From Clostridiales bacterium DTU086 (GTDB lineage: Bacteria; Bacillota; DTU086): a DNA stretch of 34,890 nucleotides. Position 1 is the first letter of the stretch; each line of letters starts with the position of its first letter. The translations under genes were made by a program, and so were the position numbers. Location of the stretch: positions 1-34,890 of the forward strand of contig LFTO01000105.1 in assembly GCA_001513335.1 (NCBI GenBank). The letters are read 5' to 3'. This document shows positions 3,392 to 17,140 of this stretch, piece by piece. Below the pieces are notes generated by a model. It was not told where the DNA came from. It was given only the letters and a program-made list of their open reading frames with translations, and made no database searches.

Positions 3392-4096
3392 TTATACAGA
3401 GGTTGATAAAGGATTATTCAAAAGAAAATCACATATTATTAAATCAATTTCCGAATCAATATCAAAAGATCTGTCTCTTGGCATAAAGTAGGGAATAGTA
3501 TCAGATGTCAGAAATGAGCGCGCTTCAAGCAGCCATTCCCACTGTGCCACATATACAGCTCCATTTAAAGCATACACTGTTGGCAAGTCTTGCCGTCTCG
3601 TAATCCCCTTATCGAGGTTTATCAAGGGAATCATGTGCCCATTTTCATCAATCTTGTACATCCAAAAGGGGCTTTTTTCCGGTTCGGTGACAGAAACACA
3701 TGCCTTTGCATTTTTTTGCAGGCATTGCTCAATACAATTGTCAATGTCCGTAACTTTACGCAAAGGCGATGTCGGTTGAAGCAGCACAATATAATCATAT
3801 TTTTCCGGAATTGTTTGAACAGCATGAACGATTACATCAATACTGGGGGTTTCATCTTGTGCCAGGGAACTTGGACGTGTAAACGGCACTTCGCAACCCA
3901 GTTTTTTTGCTACATTTATTATCCTTTCGTCCTCTGATGATAAGATTAGCCGATCAATATATTTTGACTTTTTCCCTTCCATGATAGTCCAGGCAATTAG
4001 GGGTTTTCCGCCAACGTCTCGAATATTCTTCAAGGGGACGCCTTTAGAGCCTCCACGAGCCGGAATTATAGCCAAAACAGTTTTATCTTTTATCAT
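3392..4096 (-). CDS. neuA: acylneuraminate cytidylyltransferase family (CMP-nonulosonate synthetase, NeuA/LegF type)
   Basis: LAIIPARGGSKGVPLKNIRDVGGKPLIAWTI, LLQPTSPLR and DIDSEIDL are hallmark motifs of CMP-NulO synthetases. Confidence 0.93.
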   Translation of the reverse strand: MIKDKTVLAIIPARGGSKGVPLKNIRDVGGKPLIAWTIMEGKKSKYIDRLILSSEDERIINVAKKLGCEVPFTRPSSLAQDETPSIDVIVHAVQTIPEKYDYIVLLQPTSPLRKVTDIDNCIEQCLQKNAKACVSVTEPEKSPFWMYKIDENGHMIPLINLDKGITRRQDLPTVYALNGAVYVAQWEWLLEARSFLTSDTIPYFMPRDRSFDIDSEIDLIICDFLLNNPLSTSV

Positions 4097-4135: not shown

Positions 4136-4807
4136 CTAGACAATTTCCTTTAACAGCATAAAAGCTTCCGCGGCTAGACAACCTGCGGTTGCACCACGGT
4201 ACGCAGCTAATGCACGAATTGCTTGTTCACTTCTCGGAAAGGGAAATGTACCGAACTCACTGGAATAAATTTTCATTATCTCCAATTTGGTTTCTAAGAA
4301 TTTGCTAATATCCACAAATACATTAGGCCGAAAGCCATTATCATCAGGATTAATCCCGAAATCTGTTTCAGAAAGAGTTTCATATGCCAGTACACGTTTA
4401 ACCGACCCGTAACGGAACCATTTAGTGCAAGCAGAGACTGCATCAAAGGTAATACGGTGGTCACTATGTATATCCCCACGGTAAGGTATATATATTACTT
4501 CAGGAGTAACCATTGCAAACACTTTTCCTATTGTTTTAATAATTTCGCCAATAGAAAGACTTTCGAGCCGAGCAGCGGGAAATCTCAGATCGTGTACTGA
4601 GGAAAAACCATATTTTAACGCAACTTTTTTTATCTCAGCATCTCTTCTCTGCACCTGCTCCTTAGAAAACCCCTGTTCAACTTGCATTCCTGTAATTATT
4701 AACCAATGAACAATATCACCTTCGGCTATATGTCGAAGGATTGTCCCCCCACAACCGAGGGTTTCGTCATCTGGATGAGGTGCGATAACAATAATTTGTT
4801 TGTTCAT
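4136..4807 (-). CDS. PIG-L family (LmbE-like) deacetylase
   Basis: VIAPHPDDETLGCGGTI and HSDHR metal-binding motifs. Start overlaps the neuC stop (TAATG), suggesting translational coupling. Confidence 0.92.
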   Translation of the reverse strand: MNKQIIVIAPHPDDETLGCGGTILRHIAEGDIVHWLIITGMQVEQGFSKEQVQRRDAEIKKVALKYGFSSVHDLRFPAARLESLSIGEIIKTIGKVFAMVTPEVIYIPYRGDIHSDHRITFDAVSACTKWFRYGSVKRVLAYETLSETDFGINPDDNGFRPNVFVDISKFLETKLEIMKIYSSEFGTFPFPRSEQAIRALAAYRGATAGCLAAEAFMLLKEIV

Positions 4808-5967
4808 TAATAAGTAATGTCCTTTACTAATAATTTTTTGTTAATAGGGATTGTAGCCAGAATCTCAGCTATTTTTTCTGAGGAATGGCCATCTCCATAA
4901 GGATTGGAACATTTAGCTACCTTTTCTCTGTATGATCTGTCGAATAATGCTTTGGTTACAGCATTACATATGGCATCAACATCATGTGGGACGAACTGGA
5001 CGTTCTCAGCATGTAATCGACCTTTTTGACGATTACCAACATTTATTACCGGGAGTTTCAACAAGGGCGCCTCTAAAATTCCAGCACTGGAATTTCCCAG
5101 CATGCAACCTGCTCTCCTCATAAGATTTACAAATTCCAAACGTGGAATATTTTTTGTAACATGAAGAAAACGTAAGTCTTTATATTCATTGATTGCCTTG
5201 ATTATCTGCTGGCTACCTGCATCGGAGTTTGGATAGCTGAGTATCGTTTTTATTTGTAGTCTTTTTACTGCTTCAAGAGTTTGTTTCATTTGAAAATAAC
5301 CACATTCACTTTCAGTGGAAATAACATGCTGAATTAATATTATTAATGGTTCATCCTCTTTAATATCAAAACCCAGTCTTTGTGACAGTTCAGCAGCCGT
5401 TAAATAAGGTGCCTTTTTTAATCTGTCTAATCCTGGGTTACCTGTATTAAAAACTCTAAACGGCTGCTCACCCAATTTAATAACTCGTTCATAGCTTTCC
5501 TTGTTGGTAACGAAATGTAGGTGAGCCAGTTTAGTTACTGCATGTCTTACCTGATCATCAACATTACCTACAACCCGGTCCCCCCCACCTATATGGGCAA
5601 CCGGGATATTCATATAAGCCCCAACCAGAGCAGTAGCAATTGACTCTTCCCTGTCACCTAATACCAATAGAAAATCGGGCTTAATTCTAGTAACCGTTTG
5701 AATCATACCCGCTAACTGAACTGCTAGTCCTTTAACACGGGAGGAGACATTATCCCCATTAATCAAACTTTCCACTTCATCAGCAATCTTAAAGCCATCG
5801 GATTTTATTTCTTTAATTGTATAACCATAAGCTTCTGATAAATGTGCCCCAGTAACAATGAGTTCTAAATCAAGCAACGGATGCCTATCTATTGCATGGA
5901 ACACCGAAGACATAATGTCGTATTCAGAGCGTATTCCGGTAACTCCCAAAATCTTTCGTTTATTCAT
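4807..5967 (-). CDS. neuC: hydrolysing UDP-N-acetylglucosamine 2-epimerase, NeuC/LegG type
   Basis: KRKILGVTGIRSEYDIMSSV, LVLGDREE, VAHIGGGDR and GNSSAGILEAPLLKLPVINVGNRQKGR are typical of NeuC-type epimerases. Confidence 0.93.
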   Translation of the reverse strand: MNKRKILGVTGIRSEYDIMSSVFHAIDRHPLLDLELIVTGAHLSEAYGYTIKEIKSDGFKIADEVESLINGDNVSSRVKGLAVQLAGMIQTVTRIKPDFLLVLGDREESIATALVGAYMNIPVAHIGGGDRVVGNVDDQVRHAVTKLAHLHFVTNKESYERVIKLGEQPFRVFNTGNPGLDRLKKAPYLTAAELSQRLGFDIKEDEPLIILIQHVISTESECGYFQMKQTLEAVKRLQIKTILSYPNSDAGSQQIIKAINEYKDLRFLHVTKNIPRLEFVNLMRRAGCMLGNSSAGILEAPLLKLPVINVGNRQKGRLHAENVQFVPHDVDAICNAVTKALFDRSYREKVAKCSNPYGDGHSSEKIAEILATIPINKKLLVKDITY

Positions 5968-5993
5968 ATTTTTCTCCTAATACATGATAATCT

Positions 5994-6659
5994 TCAAGTT
6001 ATAAAATGTAGTTTCATATTGTCTAAACATTTCACATTAATAAAATGAAACCCGGCATTATTAGAAAATTCTTCGTCAACTTCTCTATCTCCCCAGAAAA
6101 CAGTCTCATGGGGACTTATACCGCGAAGTACTTTTATCTTTCCTACGCTCAATACAGAAGGTTTATAGTATTCTTTACCATAAGCCCCAGTTATTACTAT
6201 GTTTTCAGTTTTGAACCAACGAAGCAACCCTAATGTTTCAATTTTTGCTAATTGGAGAGAAACAGATCCATCAGTAACTAAAAACAAATCATGAAATTCT
6301 TCAGCAAACAAGTCTAACAGCCAGCATGACCTTTTTGGCAGAGTTAAGTTTGGCTTAAACGACCTATAAATCTCAACGCACTTAGATATTATTACTTCTC
6401 TTGCGTTTTGTTCAACACCGCGGTTGATTAAAACCTCACAAAAAATACGATTGTAAGAACTCCCCTTTTCCAACCACCTTCTCACCATCCAATTATAAAT
6501 ACCTGATGGGTTACAAGAACATACCTTAGCTAAGTACTCGGAAATTGGTTTGTAAACTTGAGTGATAAAATCCAATTCATCATAAAGAGTACCATCTAAA
6601 TCAAAACCGACTACTCTTATAGAATTCCAATCAATATTAGGGAATAAAGACTTCAGCAT
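5994..6659 (-). CDS. HAD-superfamily hydrolase
   Basis: VVGFDLDGTLYDE (motif I), LVTDGS (motif II), K and FWGDREVDEEFSNNAGF (motifs III/IV). Confidence 0.88.
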   Translation of the reverse strand: MLKSLFPNIDWNSIRVVGFDLDGTLYDELDFITQVYKPISEYLAKVCSCNPSGIYNWMVRRWLEKGSSYNRIFCEVLINRGVEQNAREVIISKCVEIYRSFKPNLTLPKRSCWLLDLFAEEFHDLFLVTDGSVSLQLAKIETLGLLRWFKTENIVITGAYGKEYYKPSVLSVGKIKVLRGISPHETVFWGDREVDEEFSNNAGFHFINVKCLDNMKLHFIT

Positions 6660-7536
6660 AATACCTCTTCATTTTCATCCCATACCGGACTGGTTTAGGG
6701 TTAATTTTCTTACCAAAAATAAAATGGTCGACTATAAGATTAATCCAGTTTTCTGTTGCAGCAAACCCCAATGCCATTCCACCCGCTATACGGGGATTAA
6801 TTTCAACAAACTTAACTGAGCCGTCCTTACAGATAAAACATTGAATATTAATGGGACCCAAAAAAGGAATTTGTTTGCATATTCTTTTTACCCACTTAAT
6901 AATCTGCGGATGATTTACCACTATTCCGCCAGTTGATTTACCATCTTTAACACCCAGTCGCTTACGGGGAACAATATAAACAGGTTCTGATTGTTTGTTG
7001 CAAAAAACATCAACTGTATATTCCTCACCTTCAAGTAATTCCTGGGATATCATTCCCTCCATGTGAACAAATTCTGAAGTAACTTTAATCCCTTTTGAAC
7101 CGCGTCCGTTTCTAGGTTTTATTAATGGATATTTTTGCTCAAGGCTGGTTAGTGGTGTAGGTATTCCCGCTTGTCTAAAAAACTGAAACGTAAGCCATTT
7201 GTCTTGAAATATTTTTACAGTTTGTGGGTTGGAAATAATAGTGTGAACTCCGTGTTGTAGAAACTCTTCTTTTTTTTGAGCCCAACCCAACAAGGTTTCA
7301 TCAAGTGAAGGAATTACAATATCTATCTTATGAGAAATAAGCTTGCCCAGAGTTTTCTCCCAAAGATTCTTGTCGTCTTTGCTAGGCATCTCTATAAAGT
7401 CATGTGCCAGATAACGCCCAACACATTCAGGATCGATATCCGAAGCAACAGGGAAAAACCCGGCTTTCTTTATTGCCTCAATTAAATAAGCTGAAGTCAG
7501 GCTTCCCGATGCTTCTGTTAATATTTTTGTGGACAT
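6637..7536 (-). CDS. ATP-grasp domain protein (CarB/PylC-like carboxylate-amine ligase type)
   Basis: PLIKPRNGRGSKGIKV, ISQELLEGEEYTVDVF and FVEINPRIAGGMALGFAA are ATP-grasp motifs. Overlaps the HAD start by about 20 bp. Confidence 0.88.
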   Translation of the reverse strand: MSTKILTEASGSLTSAYLIEAIKKAGFFPVASDIDPECVGRYLAHDFIEMPSKDDKNLWEKTLGKLISHKIDIVIPSLDETLLGWAQKKEEFLQHGVHTIISNPQTVKIFQDKWLTFQFFRQAGIPTPLTSLEQKYPLIKPRNGRGSKGIKVTSEFVHMEGMISQELLEGEEYTVDVFCNKQSEPVYIVPRKRLGVKDGKSTGGIVVNHPQIIKWVKRICKQIPFLGPINIQCFICKDGSVKFVEINPRIAGGMALGFAATENWINLIVDHFIFGKKINPKPVRYGMKMKRYYAEVFIP

Positions 7537-7844: not shown

Positions 7845-8840
7845 TTATAATACTATCAACTCATCCTCTTTAAAATCTCTAACAGCTCTTTGTCCAAGCA
7901 CTTCATACCACCGCATTGGGCTGATTCCGTTGCCTGGCCGTTTTGTTGTGAGATTATCTTCTGTAAAAACCTCACCTTTTTTGATATTACGGCTGGCCAC
8001 AATGCTCTTCCTTGCAACAGCAATATTTTTCTGCTCTGACGGAGTAGGTTTCTTTACTCCTTCACCCATTGCCAATTCCACATTTCGAATAGCACTAACC
8101 ATAGCTTTTAATTCGTGGGGCTCTAAACTGGCTTTGTGATCAGGTCCTTCCATATTTCTGTCCAGGGTAAAATGTTTTTCAATTACCGTAGCTCCCAACG
8201 TTACTGCAGCAACCGGAACCTCTATTCCCATTGTATGATCAGAATATCCCACCGGAGTATTGAACTTTTCTTTCAGCGTAAGCATTGCCCTTAAATTGAC
8301 ATCTTCGTATGGTGCAGGGTATTCAGTTGTACAATGAAGTAATGTGATTTCGCCACTGCCGTTTTCTTGCAATAAATTAAAGGCTTCTTGAATTTCATCT
8401 AAATTACTCATTCCCGTGGACATTATAACCGGCTTGTGTGTTTTTGCAATCTTAATTAGATATGGTAGATTAGTAATTTCCCCGGAAGGAATCTTCCAAA
8501 ATTCCATACCAAGGTTAGCTAGGAAATCTATACTTTCTAAATCAAAAGGAGTGGAAAGAAACGTGATTTTTTGCATTTCGCAATAATTCTTCAATTCGAT
8601 AAAATCGTCAAACGACAACTCCAGTTTTCGCAGCATTTCCAATTGGCTCTCGCCAGCGCCTGTCTGCTGTATTTGATATGCGGCTTTTTCTGCATTACTG
8701 GTGACGCAATTTTCCGATTTAAATGTCTGAAACTTAATACAGTCAACGCCAGCTTCCTTTGCTTTATCAACCAACTCCTTAGCTAATTCCGGCTTGCCGT
8801 TATGGTTAACACCTGCCTCAGCAATAATAAATACTCTCAT
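7845..8840 (-). CDS. neuB: N-acetylneuraminate/legionaminate synthase (NeuB/LegI type)
   Basis: FIIAEAGVNHNGKPELAKELVDKAKEAGVDCIKFQTF, GYSDHT, EKHFTLDRNMEGPDHKASLEP and a C-terminal SAF domain. Start set at MRVFIIAEAG (ATGA overlap with the neuD stop). Confidence 0.95.
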   Translation of the reverse strand: MRVFIIAEAGVNHNGKPELAKELVDKAKEAGVDCIKFQTFKSENCVTSNAEKAAYQIQQTGAGESQLEMLRKLELSFDDFIELKNYCEMQKITFLSTPFDLESIDFLANLGMEFWKIPSGEITNLPYLIKIAKTHKPVIMSTGMSNLDEIQEAFNLLQENGSGEITLLHCTTEYPAPYEDVNLRAMLTLKEKFNTPVGYSDHTMGIEVPVAAVTLGATVIEKHFTLDRNMEGPDHKASLEPHELKAMVSAIRNVELAMGEGVKKPTPSEQKNIAVARKSIVASRNIKKGEVFTEDNLTTKRPGNGISPMRWYEVLGQRAVRDFKEDELIVL

Positions 8841-9484
8841 AAAAAGTCCTTTGCCTCCTTGCAAGGATTGCCATAGGCCAATTTGTTATCGCCAATATCA
8901 TGCAGTACTACGCTCCCCATTCCAATTAGAGAGTTTGAACCTATTTTGACCTGCTGTTTAACAACACTGTTGGCACCTATATGTGTATTTCGTCCAATAT
9001 GCACTTCTCCGCACAGGACCGAACCTGAAGCGATATGAACAAATTGACCTATAACACAATCATGTTCTACAGTACTGGAGGTATTAATGATCACACCTTC
9101 CCCGATTGTAGAACCCGTATTAATAACAACATTTTTCCCGACATATATACCTTTTGTCATAGTTACATTGTCGCTAATAATAGCTGTTGAATCACAGATA
9201 TTGGGTATATTGAAACCAATACGTTCAATCTTTGTAAACAACTTTATTCGTTTTGCCGGATTTCCTATGCTTCCAATAGTAACAAACGCATAGTTAAAAC
9301 CTTGTTGAAATAATTCCAATAAATCATCGTCACCACCTATAATGGGCACACCTAAAATTGCCTTTCCAATGTTTTCTTTCTTATCGATTATGCCAATATC
9401 CTTGTACTGGCTGGTCTTAAGAAGGCTGTCCAACACGGATTTACAATGCCCCCCACCGCCAACCAAAAGTAATTTCTTAGCCAT
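8837..9484 (-). CDS. neuD: NeuD/PglD-like sugar O/N-acetyltransferase (LbH hexapeptide repeats)
   Basis: LLLVGGGGHCKSVLDSL N-terminus followed by left-handed beta-helix hexapeptides (HIGRNTHIGANSVVKQQVKIGSNSLIGMGSVVL). Confidence 0.92.
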   Translation of the reverse strand: MAKKLLLVGGGGHCKSVLDSLLKTSQYKDIGIIDKKENIGKAILGVPIIGGDDDLLELFQQGFNYAFVTIGSIGNPAKRIKLFTKIERIGFNIPNICDSTAIISDNVTMTKGIYVGKNVVINTGSTIGEGVIINTSSTVEHDCVIGQFVHIASGSVLCGEVHIGRNTHIGANSVVKQQVKIGSNSLIGMGSVVLHDIGDNKLAYGNPCKEAKDFL

Positions 9485-9718: not shown

Positions 9719-9831
9719 TTATCCCGCTTTCCTCAAACACTTTACAATATACAGCACTTCCTCTACCTTTTTTTCAAATTCATCCAAATATTGGCCACTG
9801 GTTGCCACCCTGTATTGATTGCATGAGTCAC
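9719..9831 (-). pseudogene. legC: N-terminal, frameshifted remnant of a LegC-type (DegT/DnrJ/EryC1) aminotransferase
   Basis: Two frames: VTHAINTGW (9831-9805) then VATSGQYLDEFEKKVEEVLY... (9817-9719). Joined, NTGW-VATSGQYLDEFEKKVEE matches the 'TGWVSS.GKYVDEFEK' N-terminal region of LegC-like aminotransferases, directly after the legB-like gene. Confidence 0.6.
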
Positions 9832-9885
9832 TTATTTAAGCTCATTACCTCTCAAATTGGGAACGGATAACGGATTGTTTAATCT

Positions 9886-10878
9886 TTAAAGGTTATATAA
9901 ATCAACCTTGTATTTGTCCAAGTTATGCTTAATGAAATCTACAGTTTCCGCCAACCCCTGTTCAAGGGAATATTGGGGTTCCCAACTGGTCAGCCGCTTA
10001 ATCTTTTCATTAGAGCCCAAGAGACGGTTGACTTCGCTTTTTTCAGGTCTAATCCTCTGCTCATCACACACAATCTTTGCCTCAGGGTTAATCTGTCTAA
10101 TGAGTTCTTCCGCAAGGTGACCAATAGAAATTTCTTTTTGAGTCGCTATATTTATTTCCTCACCAATGGTCTTATCCGATTTAGCAATTTCAATGAATCC
10201 ACGGACAGTGTCTTTTACATAATTGAAATCCCTGGTAGGAGTTAAAGAACCAAGCTTTATTTCTTCTTTACCCGCCAGCAGCTGCATAATGATTGTCGGG
10301 ATAACCGCTCGGGCTGACTGCCGCGGGCCGTATGTATTAAAGGGCCTTACAATAGTTATCGGCATATCAAAACTTCTGTAGAAGGATTCTGCCAGCCTGT
10401 CTGCACCTATCTTGGTGGCTGAATAGGGTGATTGTCCCTGGAAAGGATGCTTTTCATCTATAGGTACATATTTGGCAGTACCGTACACCTCGGATGTCGA
10501 GGTGACCAATAAACGGCTTGTCCCTAAATCCCTAGCGGCCTGTAAAACATTTAACATACCTTTGATATTTGTATCAACATAACTGTCGGGAGAATGGTAA
10601 CTGAAGGGAATTGCGATAAGAGCGGCAAGGTGAAAAACCATATCTATACCTTTCATTGCCTCCCGAACCCCATTGGGATCACGGATGTCACCTGCAAACA
10701 CATCCATCTTATTCCGAATTTCCCGGGGAAACTCGTCCAGCCATCCCCACGAATTAAAGGAATTATAGTGAACAAAAGTGCGGACATTAAGACCGCTTTT
10801 TATCAGTTCTTCCGTTAGGTGAGAACCAATAAAACCACCCGCACCTGTCACAAGAATTTTTTTTCCCTGCAAATTCAT
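9886..10878 (-). CDS. legB: NAD-dependent 4,6-dehydratase (SDR), LegB-like
   Basis: KILVTGAGGFIGSHLTEELIKSG, TSTSEVYGTAKYVPIDEKHPFQGQSPYSATKIGADRLAESFYRSF and RPFNTYGPRQSARAVIPTII are typical of LegB. Start reset to MNLQGKKILVTG with a GGAGGA RBS. Confidence 0.92.
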   Translation of the reverse strand: MNLQGKKILVTGAGGFIGSHLTEELIKSGLNVRTFVHYNSFNSWGWLDEFPREIRNKMDVFAGDIRDPNGVREAMKGIDMVFHLAALIAIPFSYHSPDSYVDTNIKGMLNVLQAARDLGTSRLLVTSTSEVYGTAKYVPIDEKHPFQGQSPYSATKIGADRLAESFYRSFDMPITIVRPFNTYGPRQSARAVIPTIIMQLLAGKEEIKLGSLTPTRDFNYVKDTVRGFIEIAKSDKTIGEEINIATQKEISIGHLAEELIRQINPEAKIVCDEQRIRPEKSEVNRLLGSNEKIKRLTSWEPQYSLEQGLAETVDFIKHNLDKYKVDLYNL

Positions 10879-10913
10879 GATGAGTTCCTCCAGGATTGTT
10901 TGTTTTAATTTTT

Positions 10914-11990
10914 TCACATATTTATTAAAGAGGATAATTCAAAAACCTTTAATGTTTGGCGGTATTCTTCCCACTGCCCCACATCAAACCATTTTCCATG
11001 AAATGGAAAGACCCCTGTTTTGAAACCGTTTTTTTGGGCAAGAACGATTAATTCTGTCATGTGTAAAGGTTGATGTCTGGGAACAAGTGATAATAGTCTA
11101 GGTTCTAATACATAAACTCCGGTATTAACCAAATAATGAAGGTTGGGTTTTTCCTCTATGTTATGTAACTTTCCGTTGTCTGTTCGCAATACTCCATAAG
11201 GGATAGTAAACTCCTTGAGAGCACCGACAATAGTAAGATCATTTTCTCTATCTTTATGAAAAGATAGAACATCATCGTAATTGGCCTCAAGAATAATGTC
11301 ACAATTCGTTACAAAAAAGGTAGTTTGTATTTTGTTATCCAACAGGCTTAATGCTCCCGCAGTACCAAGGGGCTCTTTCTCTTGCACAAAATCAGTTTTA
11401 TAAGGACGCCCGTTATTTTCCGCAAAATAAGTTTTGATAATCTCTGCCTTGTATCCGAGGGACAGTATGAAATTGCTAAAGCCCTGCCTGTAAAACTTAT
11501 CCATAATAACCTCAACAATAGGCTTATCACCCAGGGGAATCATCGGTTTAGGAAGAATCTTCGTAAAAGGATCTAGTCGGGTCCCCATTCCCCCAGCCAT
11601 AATTACTACTGGTTCATCTTTTTTCGTGCATGGCCGGTCAAATACATCTAGCCACAAGACTAAGTCAACCAAAAAACCCTGCTCGTCTGTCAAAGGAATA
11701 TGCCGAATATTTTTTTTGAGCATAACATTTTTTATGTAAGATATTGGCGTACCAACTTTTAAAACCAAGGGAGCGGGATTCATAATTTGGGAAAGGACAA
11801 CTTCCAAACCGCCACCCCGCAGCAGTGTCCGCCGTATATCACCATCAGTGATAGTACCTAACAAGCGCCCTGCCTCATCAACTATCAAAAGCACCTGCAT
11901 AGCGGCAGCTTCCATACGAGGCAACGCAAAAGATAACTTTTCCTCCGGTGAAGCTATTATTTTTTTCAGTTCATTACGATGCCATTCCAT
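10914..11990 (-). CDS. CBS-domain plus sugar nucleotidyltransferase (PtmE/LegF-like)
   Basis: N-terminal CBS pair (LLIVDEAGRLLGTITDGDIRRTLLRG) and NTP-transferase (PVVIMAGGMGTRLDPFTKILPKPMIPLGDKPIVEVIMDKF), as in GDP-linked legionaminic acid clusters. Confidence 0.92.
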   Translation of the reverse strand: MEWHRNELKKIIASPEEKLSFALPRMEAAAMQVLLIVDEAGRLLGTITDGDIRRTLLRGGGLEVVLSQIMNPAPLVLKVGTPISYIKNVMLKKNIRHIPLTDEQGFLVDLVLWLDVFDRPCTKKDEPVVIMAGGMGTRLDPFTKILPKPMIPLGDKPIVEVIMDKFYRQGFSNFILSLGYKAEIIKTYFAENNGRPYKTDFVQEKEPLGTAGALSLLDNKIQTTFFVTNCDIILEANYDDVLSFHKDRENDLTIVGALKEFTIPYGVLRTDNGKLHNIEEKPNLHYLVNTGVYVLEPRLLSLVPRHQPLHMTELIVLAQKNGFKTGVFPFHGKWFDVGQWEEYRQTLKVFELSSLINM

Positions 11991-13068: not shown

Positions 13069-14955
13069 TCAAAATCGACTTTCTTTTGGTTCTCCAGAAT
13101 ATAAACCAGTTATTGTTCTGTTGATTATTTCAAACTCCCCGTACGTAAAGGATAAATCTTTATTACAAACATACAAAAACTTGCCAAAGGCATTGATAAC
13201 CTTCTCAGCTTTCGCCCGGGGTTCTTTTTCCTCACGAATATAAATGGCTTCCTTGCTCAATATGTCGGCGTACACCCTATTCATAGGTTTGATAAATACT
13301 TTAAAGTAACTGTTATCCTGCAGTTTTTCCGTTGTTGCATCAAGTTTGCTGTACATTCTTTCCAGCTGGCCAAAATTCCCGTTTACAGCCAGTGAACAGA
13401 TTTTCTTCAATAGCTCGTCAACATTGGACATTATCTTCTTGAGATCTGTGTATGCTGCATTCATTTTGTCAAGCTGGACAAATAAGTAATCAATATCATA
13501 GCTGTATTTATCCTTTGGCAGCCAATCAGAAACGGTTATTTCATCTTTTAGAAACCGAGTAATGACTTCGTCCAGGGAAATAAAGGAAGCACCCTTAATA
13601 TCGGCCCCTCCCTGGGTGGTATTGATGACTTTTATACCGGATAGCTTCTCTATATACAGTTCCATTTGCTGCCGTGTTCTGTTAAAGACTTCATTGGTGA
13701 GAACTTTTCCGCCATGGACATCCTTCACCCATAGTCCGTTTTGTTTTTCCTGTTCATTTACTTCACTACTGTAGTCCACCCCGGCAGAGTGACGCTTATT
13801 ATCCTTGTAAGCCAGGTTCTGCCCCACAAGGATAATGGGATTAAACCCCAACTGATACAACAACTGTAGAGTAACTCCAGTAATTGAAGGTGCATCATAA
13901 ACCCCTTGTATCGGCTCCCCGTTTCTGCTCTTTAAAAAGAAGGCAGAGACCGTATCCTGGCTGGTAAGCACGTGATATTTGGGCCCCGGATATTTTTCCA
14001 GTGTCTCATACCCCACGCTGCTGCCAAAAATCATGGGGATTCCCTTAATATCCCGTTCCACTACCTTGGCAAAAACCTTCTGGTTATTTTCAGTTGGGTC
14101 ATAGGTACAAGCCGCGTGAGGATAGATATTGTTTTCAACCAAAGTATTGATAGAACCACCGACACTGAATATATACGCCAAACCGTTATCTTTTATATAA
14201 CGAACCTTTTCAATCTCTTCATTTAGAGAGGGTCCAGGGGCTACCAGCAGGGCAGGCTGACCTGTAAAGGCTCCCTTTTTCTCCATTAAAATATTGGGAG
14301 TGTTGAGTACCTCTTTGAAGTTCTTTATACTGTTTAGGGTCCAGCGTTTCTGGAAAGCATAATTGGTACGCAAACTGTTTCTTTTGTCTTTAATTAATTT
14401 GTTGAATAATTCCTGAAACTGGTTGTATTGTTCAGGGAAAGCAGTTTTATGGCCGGGTAGAGGAATAATTATCAACTTTCTGTCCAAGCGATTAAAAAAG
14501 TTAATAAAAAAGTTTGTCGCCTGTTGTTCGGCATCTGCCAAAACTATACTTTTTACCCTGGACAGCGGCAGTTTTGACAATTCACCATGGGATATGTACT
14601 GGTTAAAAACTTCTGGCACCGGTTCGTAAATAAAGAAATCAACATTTGGGTGTCTTTTGGCAAAAGCAGCGATATGGTAGCCAAGTCCGGTTCCGTAAAA
14701 AATAACAGTGGAATTATCCTCGAAGTTTTTATACTCTTCAAGTATCATCTCGGCTTCCCGATGCGGATCATATTTACTGTGTAAATAAACGCGGCGCTCG
14801 GAGACATTGACCGCCAAAGTTTTGGTACCATTCCGGGAATTTTCCGCTTCTACCAGAGAAGGCTCTAGTTTTTTTTCCTGTTTGTATTCTTCCCACTGCT
14901 TCCATAAAGGGTAGAAATTATTTTTTAATGCATTAATATTGTCAATCATGGACAT
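13069..14955 (-). CDS. Maf/DUF115 (motility accessory factor) family, putative flagellin nonulosonate transferase
   Basis: FYGTGLGYHIAAFAKRHPNVDFFIYEPVPEVF, ALLVAPGPSLNEEIEKV, IFSVGGSINTLVENNIYPHAACTYDPT and SITGVTLQLLYQLGFNPIILVGQNLAY are Maf motifs. Confidence 0.92.
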   Translation of the reverse strand: MSMIDNINALKNNFYPLWKQWEEYKQEKKLEPSLVEAENSRNGTKTLAVNVSERRVYLHSKYDPHREAEMILEEYKNFEDNSTVIFYGTGLGYHIAAFAKRHPNVDFFIYEPVPEVFNQYISHGELSKLPLSRVKSIVLADAEQQATNFFINFFNRLDRKLIIIPLPGHKTAFPEQYNQFQELFNKLIKDKRNSLRTNYAFQKRWTLNSIKNFKEVLNTPNILMEKKGAFTGQPALLVAPGPSLNEEIEKVRYIKDNGLAYIFSVGGSINTLVENNIYPHAACTYDPTENNQKVFAKVVERDIKGIPMIFGSSVGYETLEKYPGPKYHVLTSQDTVSAFFLKSRNGEPIQGVYDAPSITGVTLQLLYQLGFNPIILVGQNLAYKDNKRHSAGVDYSSEVNEQEKQNGLWVKDVHGGKVLTNEVFNRTRQQMELYIEKLSGIKVINTTQGGADIKGASFISLDEVITRFLKDEITVSDWLPKDKYSYDIDYLFVQLDKMNAAYTDLKKIMSNVDELLKKICSLAVNGNFGQLERMYSKLDATTEKLQDNSYFKVFIKPMNRVYADILSKEAIYIREEKEPRAKAEKVINAFGKFLYVCNKDLSFTYGEFEIINRTITGLYSGEPKESRF

Positions 14956-15811: not shown

Positions 15812-17140
15812 CTACTGTAGCAACTGCAGAACTAGCTGGGGCATCATGTTTGCCTGGGCAAGCATGGCAGTTGCAGCCTGGCTGATGATGTTGTTCTTGG
15901 TGAACTCCATCATTTCTTTGGCCATGTCAACGTCACGGATACGGGACTCGGCTGCTGTCAGGTTTTCAGCAGAGGTTCCCAGGTTGTTAATAGTGTGCTC
16001 CAGACGGTTCTGGTAGGCACCAAGCTTGGAACGCTCGGTAGATACAGCCTCAATTGCGTCGTTTATTGTTGTGATAGCGGCATTAGCAGTATCTTGTGAG
16101 GAAATATTGATGCCAACAACAGTTAATTCGACACCAGCAACAAGTGCATTTTCTGCACTCATTACAACTGTACCCTCACTGTTAACATATCCCTTCTCAG
16201 TATCGTCAAATGTAGCTACAACTTCTCCTTTAGAGTTTACAATGCCATCATCAGTTGTCTTATAGACTCCAGCATTTAAACCGTTATTAGAAACAGACAC
16301 AGTTTGTGGTTCATCAAAATTAATTGTCGCTGTAGTTTGACTAGTATCAATAACCACTTCCGTTCCAATTGTTAATTTTGAACCAAATTCGATTTTATCG
16401 GCCACACCGTCACCTGGTTTTGTCCCGGTAAAAGTAATCCCATCAGTACTGTTCGCAATCACATTGCCCGAAGAATCTTCCAATGTATAAGCTCCTTCAC
16501 TGCCACCAACAGTATAGGTCCCATTGACAATAGTTGCCTCTGCGGAGGTACCACCGGAACCAACTCCACTATTGTTCACTGCTGTATAAGTAGCACTAAT
16601 TTTTGCAGATTCAGTTTCATAGGTTATGTCTCCAACAACGTTTAACGTTAGAGAATCCATAGCACCGATTTCTAATGCAATATTCTGACTCTCATTTGCC
16701 CCAATATGAAAAATCCCTTTAAAAGACCCGTTGAGGAGTTTCTGGGTGTTAAATTCAGTATTTTCTGCAATACGAGTAAGTTCCTGGGCCAACTGGTCCA
16801 CTTCTTTTTGCAGCTCAGCGCGATCTTTTTCAGTGTTGGTGTCAGAGGCAGCCTGGACAGCCAGCTCGCGCATACGCTGTAAAATAGAGTGGGTTTCGTT
16901 CAGTGCCCCCTCAGCGGTTTGGATAAGGGAAATGCCGTCCTGAGCATTCTTGGTAGCCATTTCCAATCCGCGAATCTGACCACGCATTTTTTCACTGATG
17001 GCCAGACCGGCTGCGTCGTCACCTGCACGGTTAATCCTGTAACCAGACGACAGTTTTTCCAGGGACTTTTGTGTGAAGTTGTTTACCCCTGTTAGCTGCC
17101 TGTAGGTGTTTAAAGCGGCAATGTTGTGGTTAATTCTCAT
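15812..17140 (-). CDS. fliC: flagellin
   Basis: Canonical flagellin N-terminus (MRINHNIAALNTYRQL...LSSGYRINRAGDDAAGLAISEKMRGQIRGL) and C-terminus (LGAYQNRLEHTINNL...RDVDMAKEMMEFTKNNIISQAATAMLAQAN), with a variable Ser/Thr/Gly-rich centre. Confidence 0.97.
   Translation of the reverse strand: MRINHNIAALNTYRQLTGVNNFTQKSLEKLSSGYRINRAGDDAAGLAISEKMRGQIRGLEMATKNAQDGISLIQTAEGALNETHSILQRMRELAVQAASDTNTEKDRAELQKEVDQLAQELTRIAENTEFNTQKLLNGSFKGIFHIGANESQNIALEIGAMDSLTLNVVGDITYETESAKISATYTAVNNSGVGSGGTSAEATIVNGTYTVGGSEGAYTLEDSSGNVIANSTDGITFTGTKPGDGVADKIEFGSKLTIGTEVVIDTSQTTATINFDEPQTVSVSNNGLNAGVYKTTDDGIVNSKGEVVATFDDTEKGYVNSEGTVVMSAENALVAGVELTVVGINISSQDTANAAITTINDAIEAVSTERSKLGAYQNRLEHTINNLGTSAENLTAAESRIRDVDMAKEMMEFTKNNIISQAATAMLAQANMMPQLVLQLLQ

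Follow-up and report, generated by a model that had tools for sequence, protein, structure and literature searches.

In nonulosonate pathways, what is numbered as the 4-amino group in the precursor is the 7-amino group of the finished nonulosonate. The presence of PtmE implies GDP-linked precursors, and PglE/EpsN aminotransferases use UDP-sugars. The usual order of the legionaminate genes in relatives of the cluster studied here is legB-legC-ptmE-neuD-neuB-neuC-neuA. LegB and LegC have been described as GDP-sugar enzymes (PMC13317340). The legionaminate pathway of Bacillus subtilis uses UDP-sugars, and Campylobacter jejuni legB failed to restore legionaminate completely in a B. subtilis spsM mutant (PMC7439481).

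The window, the whole 34,890-nucleotide stretch of Clostridiales bacterium DTU086 that was analysed, carries a cluster with the same legB/neuD/neuB type, gene order and spacing as the legionaminate clusters of other Bacillota (Tepidibacillus, Sedimentibacter, Acetobacterium), which often lie near maf and flagellin genes. By contrast with these clusters, legC and the ancestral ptmE are gutted here, their relics occupying the ancestral slots, a ptmE of another type stands upstream of legB, and neuC and the ATP-grasp, HAD and PIG-L genes appear to come from another cluster type. Judged from its sequence, this is a real pseudogene pair in an otherwise open legionaminate-type flagellar cluster.

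Two gutted genes between legB and neuD

The gap between legB and neuD spans 401 bases and contains two pseudogenes, legC and ptmE (Table 1). An earlier note had read a decayed legC from two minus-strand frames at 9719-9835, VTHAINTGW and VATSGQYLDEFEKKVEEVLYIVKCLRKAG with its stop. Both frames are present and, joined across the frameshift, they do resemble LegC. Read as one stretch, the relic matched NCBIfam TIGR04181 (LegC) over profile positions 16-45 with E = 1.7e-5, a fragment match far below the 420-bit cut-off, and a whole-genome search with a LegC profile built from 15 relatives returned the same site unprompted (C121:9799-9876, E = 9e-4, one internal TAA). A frameshift-aware profile aligner, written for this analysis and run on the 401-base gap, gave the relic a score of 99.8 against a 49-sequence LegC profile, compared with a mean of 25.3 (SD 3.4, maximum 42.4) for 200 dinucleotide shuffles and at most 41.3 for other 401-base pieces of the window. 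The relic lies on the same strand as its neighbours, between legB and ptmE/neuD, and its recognisable part starts 12 bases past the legB stop, a spacing as tight as that of relatives.

Table 1. Features of the flagellar sugar cluster and its surroundings in the window
Feature	Position	Strand	Remarks
CMP-nonulosonate synthetase (neuA/legF/pseF-like)	3392-4096	-	
PIG-L family deacetylase	4136-4807	-	in cluster
neuC/legG hydrolysing 2-epimerase	4807-5967	-	type found in genome G398, 70% identical
HAD phosphatase	5994-6659	-	in cluster
ATP-grasp ligase	6637-7536	-	in cluster
neuB/legI nonulosonate synthase, intact	7845-8864	-	TIGR03569, 531.8 bits
neuD/legH-like N-acetyltransferase, intact	8837-9484	-	TIGR03570, 210 bits (cut-off 160.8)
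ptmE pseudogene, type following legC in relatives	9627-9477	-	both ends match
legC pseudogene	9873-9719	-	codons ~7-46 fused to last ~15 codons and stop
legB, nucleotide-GlcNAc 4,6-dehydratase, intact	9886-10917	-	TIGR04180, 519.6 bits (cut-off 475)
ptmE (CBS + nucleotidyltransferase), other type, intact	10914-11990	-	upstream of legB
Maf/MptE-like flagellin glycosyltransferase	13069-14955	-	probable user of the sugar
Flagellin	15812-17140	-	probable acceptor

The site and the N-terminal LegC region had been placed correctly, but the relic starts 38 bases further upstream, with PLSVPNLRGNELK and its stop at 9873-9832 (in-frame TAA at 9834-9832). The full order is PLSVPNLRGNELK, stop, VTHAINTGW, a frameshift (4 bases lost net, following TGW at 9805), TSGQYLDEFEKKVEE, and VLYIVKCLRKAG with the stop that ends at 9719. 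Nor is the relic N-terminal throughout, as had been proposed: its last residues, EEVLYIVKCLRKAG and stop, match the carboxyl end of LegC (25.2 versus a shuffle maximum of 20.4; consensus EDVLYVIECLKN), indicating that the middle of the gene was deleted. About 330 internal codons (residues ~47 to 374) are gone and both ends are kept, the last ~15 codons and stop lying at 9763-9719. The relic is a pseudogene and not a working LegC, the PLP-binding lysine and the catalytic core being absent from the two ends that remain.

The 3' half of the gap was considered as further legC sequence, but it scored at background against LegC (23.5) and fits ptmE instead. This second relic, which fills most of the remainder of the gap and had been missed, scored 94.0 (shuffle maximum 38.8), its amino-terminal match alone being marginal (26.1 versus a shuffle maximum of 25.8). 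Its first 14 codons, MELKDILIDGECTI (9627-9586), are followed in another frame by the last ~34 codons, EKVGVFSISENGWMDICQFDEMEEMRKRLAGDG and stop (9578-9477), with ~300 internal codons deleted. Its stop and the start of neuD share 8 bases, an overlap of identical length to that in many relatives, and keeping this 3' end may matter because the likely neuD ribosome site would lie there. The relic does not derive from partial copying of the intact ptmE that precedes legB, as its sequence fits the type that follows legC in relatives; the intact gene, 60% identical to those of two other loci (L036 and L224), probably replaces it. From these alignments, legC and ptmE each lost the middle through a deletion of its own and retained the ends. 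Both relics, the ancestral gene order and the intact ptmE of another type can be read directly from the DNA. The pieces are short and readable only across a frameshift, as chance similarity or an assembly error might produce. Either is highly improbable: both relics lie more than 20 SD above shuffles, order, strand and spacing are right, the ancestral 8-base overlap is kept, and two separate deletions of about a kilobase together with a stop and a frameshift are atypical of assembly error.

Ancestral order and the open genes of the cluster

LegB was scanned in one genome per species across 84,980 species, and 80 of the loci carried organism names. In 60 of these, legB has an intact legC no more than 1.6 kb away (58 downstream, 2 upstream), and relatives have it exactly where the decayed copy sits here, which agrees with the position assigned by the earlier note. 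LegB, NeuD and NeuB of the window are of the relatives' type (maximum identities of 85%, 69% and 73%, respectively), so the relics represent the two genes that this cassette now lacks. The earlier note had declared beforehand that its claim would fall with a lack of LegC similarity or with relatives lacking legC ancestry at this position; similarity and ancestry were both found, and its observation is, on this comparison, correct but understated, being confirmed and extended here. The cluster is absent from the three same-family genomes examined. When LegB loci without an adjacent legC were checked for relics (134 stretches, not all from different genomes), only one, L085, gave a clear case. 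Another, L065, has two frameshifts beside a contig end that may be a sequencing fault, and at several loci legC lies further away or on another contig. Three such LegB clusters carry, in or near the legC slot, a protein that by eye resembles a WbpG/PseA-type sugar amidotransferase (L086 8987-10102, without a Pfam match; L229 7974-9086; L117 13748-14842), and in a further one a 376-residue protein without a Pfam match lies between neuC and neuB (L288 5452-6582).

As the earlier note had stated, the operon holds no intact aminotransferase, and the remaining pathway genes are open: an intact legC is absent from the cluster, no other PF01041 match occurs on the window's contig, and LegB, LegH/NeuD, LegG/NeuC, LegI/NeuB, LegF/NeuA and the upstream ptmE all have open frames. 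Invariant columns are kept at 156 of 159 positions in LegB, 13 of 13 in NeuD and 58 of 59 in NeuB. The neuC, ATP-grasp, HAD and PIG-L genes (70, 61, 46 and 59% identity to a block in genome G398) look imported from another cluster type, which would make the cluster a mosaic. ATP-grasp, HAD, NeuC-type epimerase and PIG-L genes form a conserved block in nonulosonate clusters (window 4136-7536; L221 10402-13752), and this block may serve to link an acyl or aminoacyl group to the sugar and to trim it.

Such an import, together with NeuC and NeuB matches well above cut-off to the sialic-acid models TIGR03568 and TIGR03569, would suit a cluster that has dropped the LegC step and makes a nonulosonate without the 7-amino group, e.g. 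ordinary or 9-deoxy sialic acid. However, LegG and LegI enzymes also fall within these models, so that the matches do not tell the product; in addition, NeuD, the acetylator of the amino group, is intact, and the compared LegB clusters with the same NeuC/ATP-grasp module retain legC. We regard a product of this kind as improbable.

Candidate aminotransferases elsewhere in the genome

A whole-genome search for another LegC, which the earlier note had proposed, found no second one: the LegC profile detected no further LegC fragment in the whole assembly. An intact legC hidden in an assembly gap, conceivable in a draft of 243 contigs, is a slightly weaker prospect still than a product lacking the 7-amino group, given this result and an estimated completeness of 98.8%. 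Two other DegT-family sugar aminotransferases are encoded in the genome, on contigs C45 and C149. The C45 enzyme is distant, looks QdtB/WlbE-like and has a Gfo/Idh-like oxidoreductase and a hexapeptide acyltransferase as neighbours, making it an unlikely replacement for LegC. The C149 enzyme is the sole LegC-like enzyme in the genome, scoring 385 bits against the LegC model (cut-off 420) and containing the catalytic-lysine motif SFNGNK. Its nearest PDB entries are 1o61 and 4ztc, which we take to be C. jejuni PglE, and it falls into an EpsN/PglE-type clade apart from operonic LegC (support 100/100). Its gene precedes one for a PglC-like bacterial sugar transferase (PF02397), and the contig ends inside the gene after the aminotransferase. 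Contamination is not supported: a neighbouring gene on C149 shares 51-53% identity with same-family genomes and no more than 45% with others, and GC contents agree (0.458 versus 0.451), placing the contig, by similarity and composition, in this genome. The C149 enzyme is the one plausible candidate for 4-amination. As the search yielded one such enzyme, we lean towards complementation among the two alternatives offered by the earlier note, and give less weight to a changed nonulosonate.

The likeliest single explanation, drawn from genome content, is that the C149 enzyme supplies the amination. We judge it slightly better than even that, despite the two gutted genes, the cluster still makes a 7-amino flagellin nonulosonate in this way. 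LegB would make the 4-keto-6-deoxy sugar, the PglE/EpsN-type enzyme would stand in for LegC in adding the amino group, which NeuD would acetylate; in return, LegB and perhaps NeuD may serve the C149 exopolysaccharide pathway, which has no detected dehydratase of its own. PF02719 dehydratases of the PglF/EpsC kind went undetected in the draft genome, in which assembly gaps are possible: four weak matches (at most 64.5 bits) correspond to LegB itself, two GalE-like proteins and another SDR, while all 11 other genomes examined that encode this aminotransferase have a match of 406-435 bits. The genome has no NeuD/PglD-family member above cut-off besides the NeuD of the window. LegB without LegC and EpsN without EpsC could thus form one pathway. 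Reciprocal loss may even have merged two pathways, the flagellar cluster losing its aminotransferase and the exopolysaccharide cluster its dehydratase (perhaps also its acetyltransferase), with LegB, an EpsN-type enzyme competent for the LegB product, and NeuD serving the flagellin nonulosonate and a bacillosamine-type sugar alike; this broader proposal is tentative and rather doubtful. Since C149 ends mid-gene, PglD and perhaps PglF may be unassembled, and in Clostridiaceae bacterium BRH_c20a a PglD-like acetyltransferase gene directly follows the EpsN-type aminotransferase, so the absence of PglD here may be an assembly gap.

The likely mismatch between GDP (PtmE) and UDP (PglE/EpsN) counts against a take-over by the C149 enzyme, as does the inability of C. 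jejuni legB to replace the UDP-using SpsM of B. subtilis completely (PMC7439481). The mismatch lends some weight to the view that the pathway was recently broken, with legC dead and unreplaced and the other genes intact only for want of time to decay. A coding-like substitution pattern persists in the remnants (in the first part 0.24/0.15/0.67 by codon position, as in intact genes), so the loss of legC may be recent and the integrity of LegB says little. Nevertheless, legC has several separate lesions (stop, frameshift, ~330-codon deletion), ptmE has another deletion, and the rest of the cluster is open and has acquired a new ptmE; we consider a recent break unlikely. The main doubts about C149 amination are UDP versus GDP substrates, gaps in the draft assembly and, possibly, a recent loss.

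A parallel locus and comparison with described pathways

In BRH_c20a, a metagenome-assembled genome, legC has decayed separately: the pseudogene (L085 8990-10090) is full-length, carries 15 frameshifts and 3 stops, and lies between intact legB and ptmE, with neuD, neuB and neuC also open. An EpsN-type aminotransferase 75% identical to that of C149 is encoded ~11 kb upstream on the same contig. As in DTU086, legC has decayed in place, the other genes are open and the genome holds an EpsN-type gene; unlike in DTU086, legC has no large deletion, ptmE is intact and the genome has PglF-type dehydratases. This case fits a take-over by the EpsN type. However, an EpsN-type gene was found in about 9 of the 35 LegB genomes searched, mostly alongside an intact legC, so that two paired cases prove little and may have arisen by chance; the instances in which a LegB locus lacking legC co-occurs with an EpsN-type gene are too few for statistics. 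One LegB cluster without legC (L229) has an EpsN-type aminotransferase (252-1418, 56-58% identical to C149) ~0.9 kb downstream of neuA, and that genome encodes both LegB and LegC in another cluster (L290).

If amination is supplied in trans, a bacillosamine-type aminotransferase can replace legC, cluster content alone would mispredict the nonulosonates made by such genomes, and it becomes possible to test directly which substrates, GDP- or UDP-linked, LegB and EpsN accept. Otherwise, this is ordinary gene decay in a flagellar sugar cluster caught in the middle of remodelling.

Among described systems, the C149 enzyme groups with the PglE/EpsN UDP-4-amino-sugar aminotransferases (1o61, 4ztc) and, in keeping with them, is encoded before a PglC-like sugar transferase; in contrast to those systems, the search of this genome yielded no PglF/EpsC dehydratase to partner it. 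The proposed arrangement resembles the B. subtilis sps legionaminate pathway, in which one enzyme, SpsM, is also encoded away from the main operon, but there the remote enzyme is the dehydratase and the pathway runs on UDP-sugars (PMC7439481).
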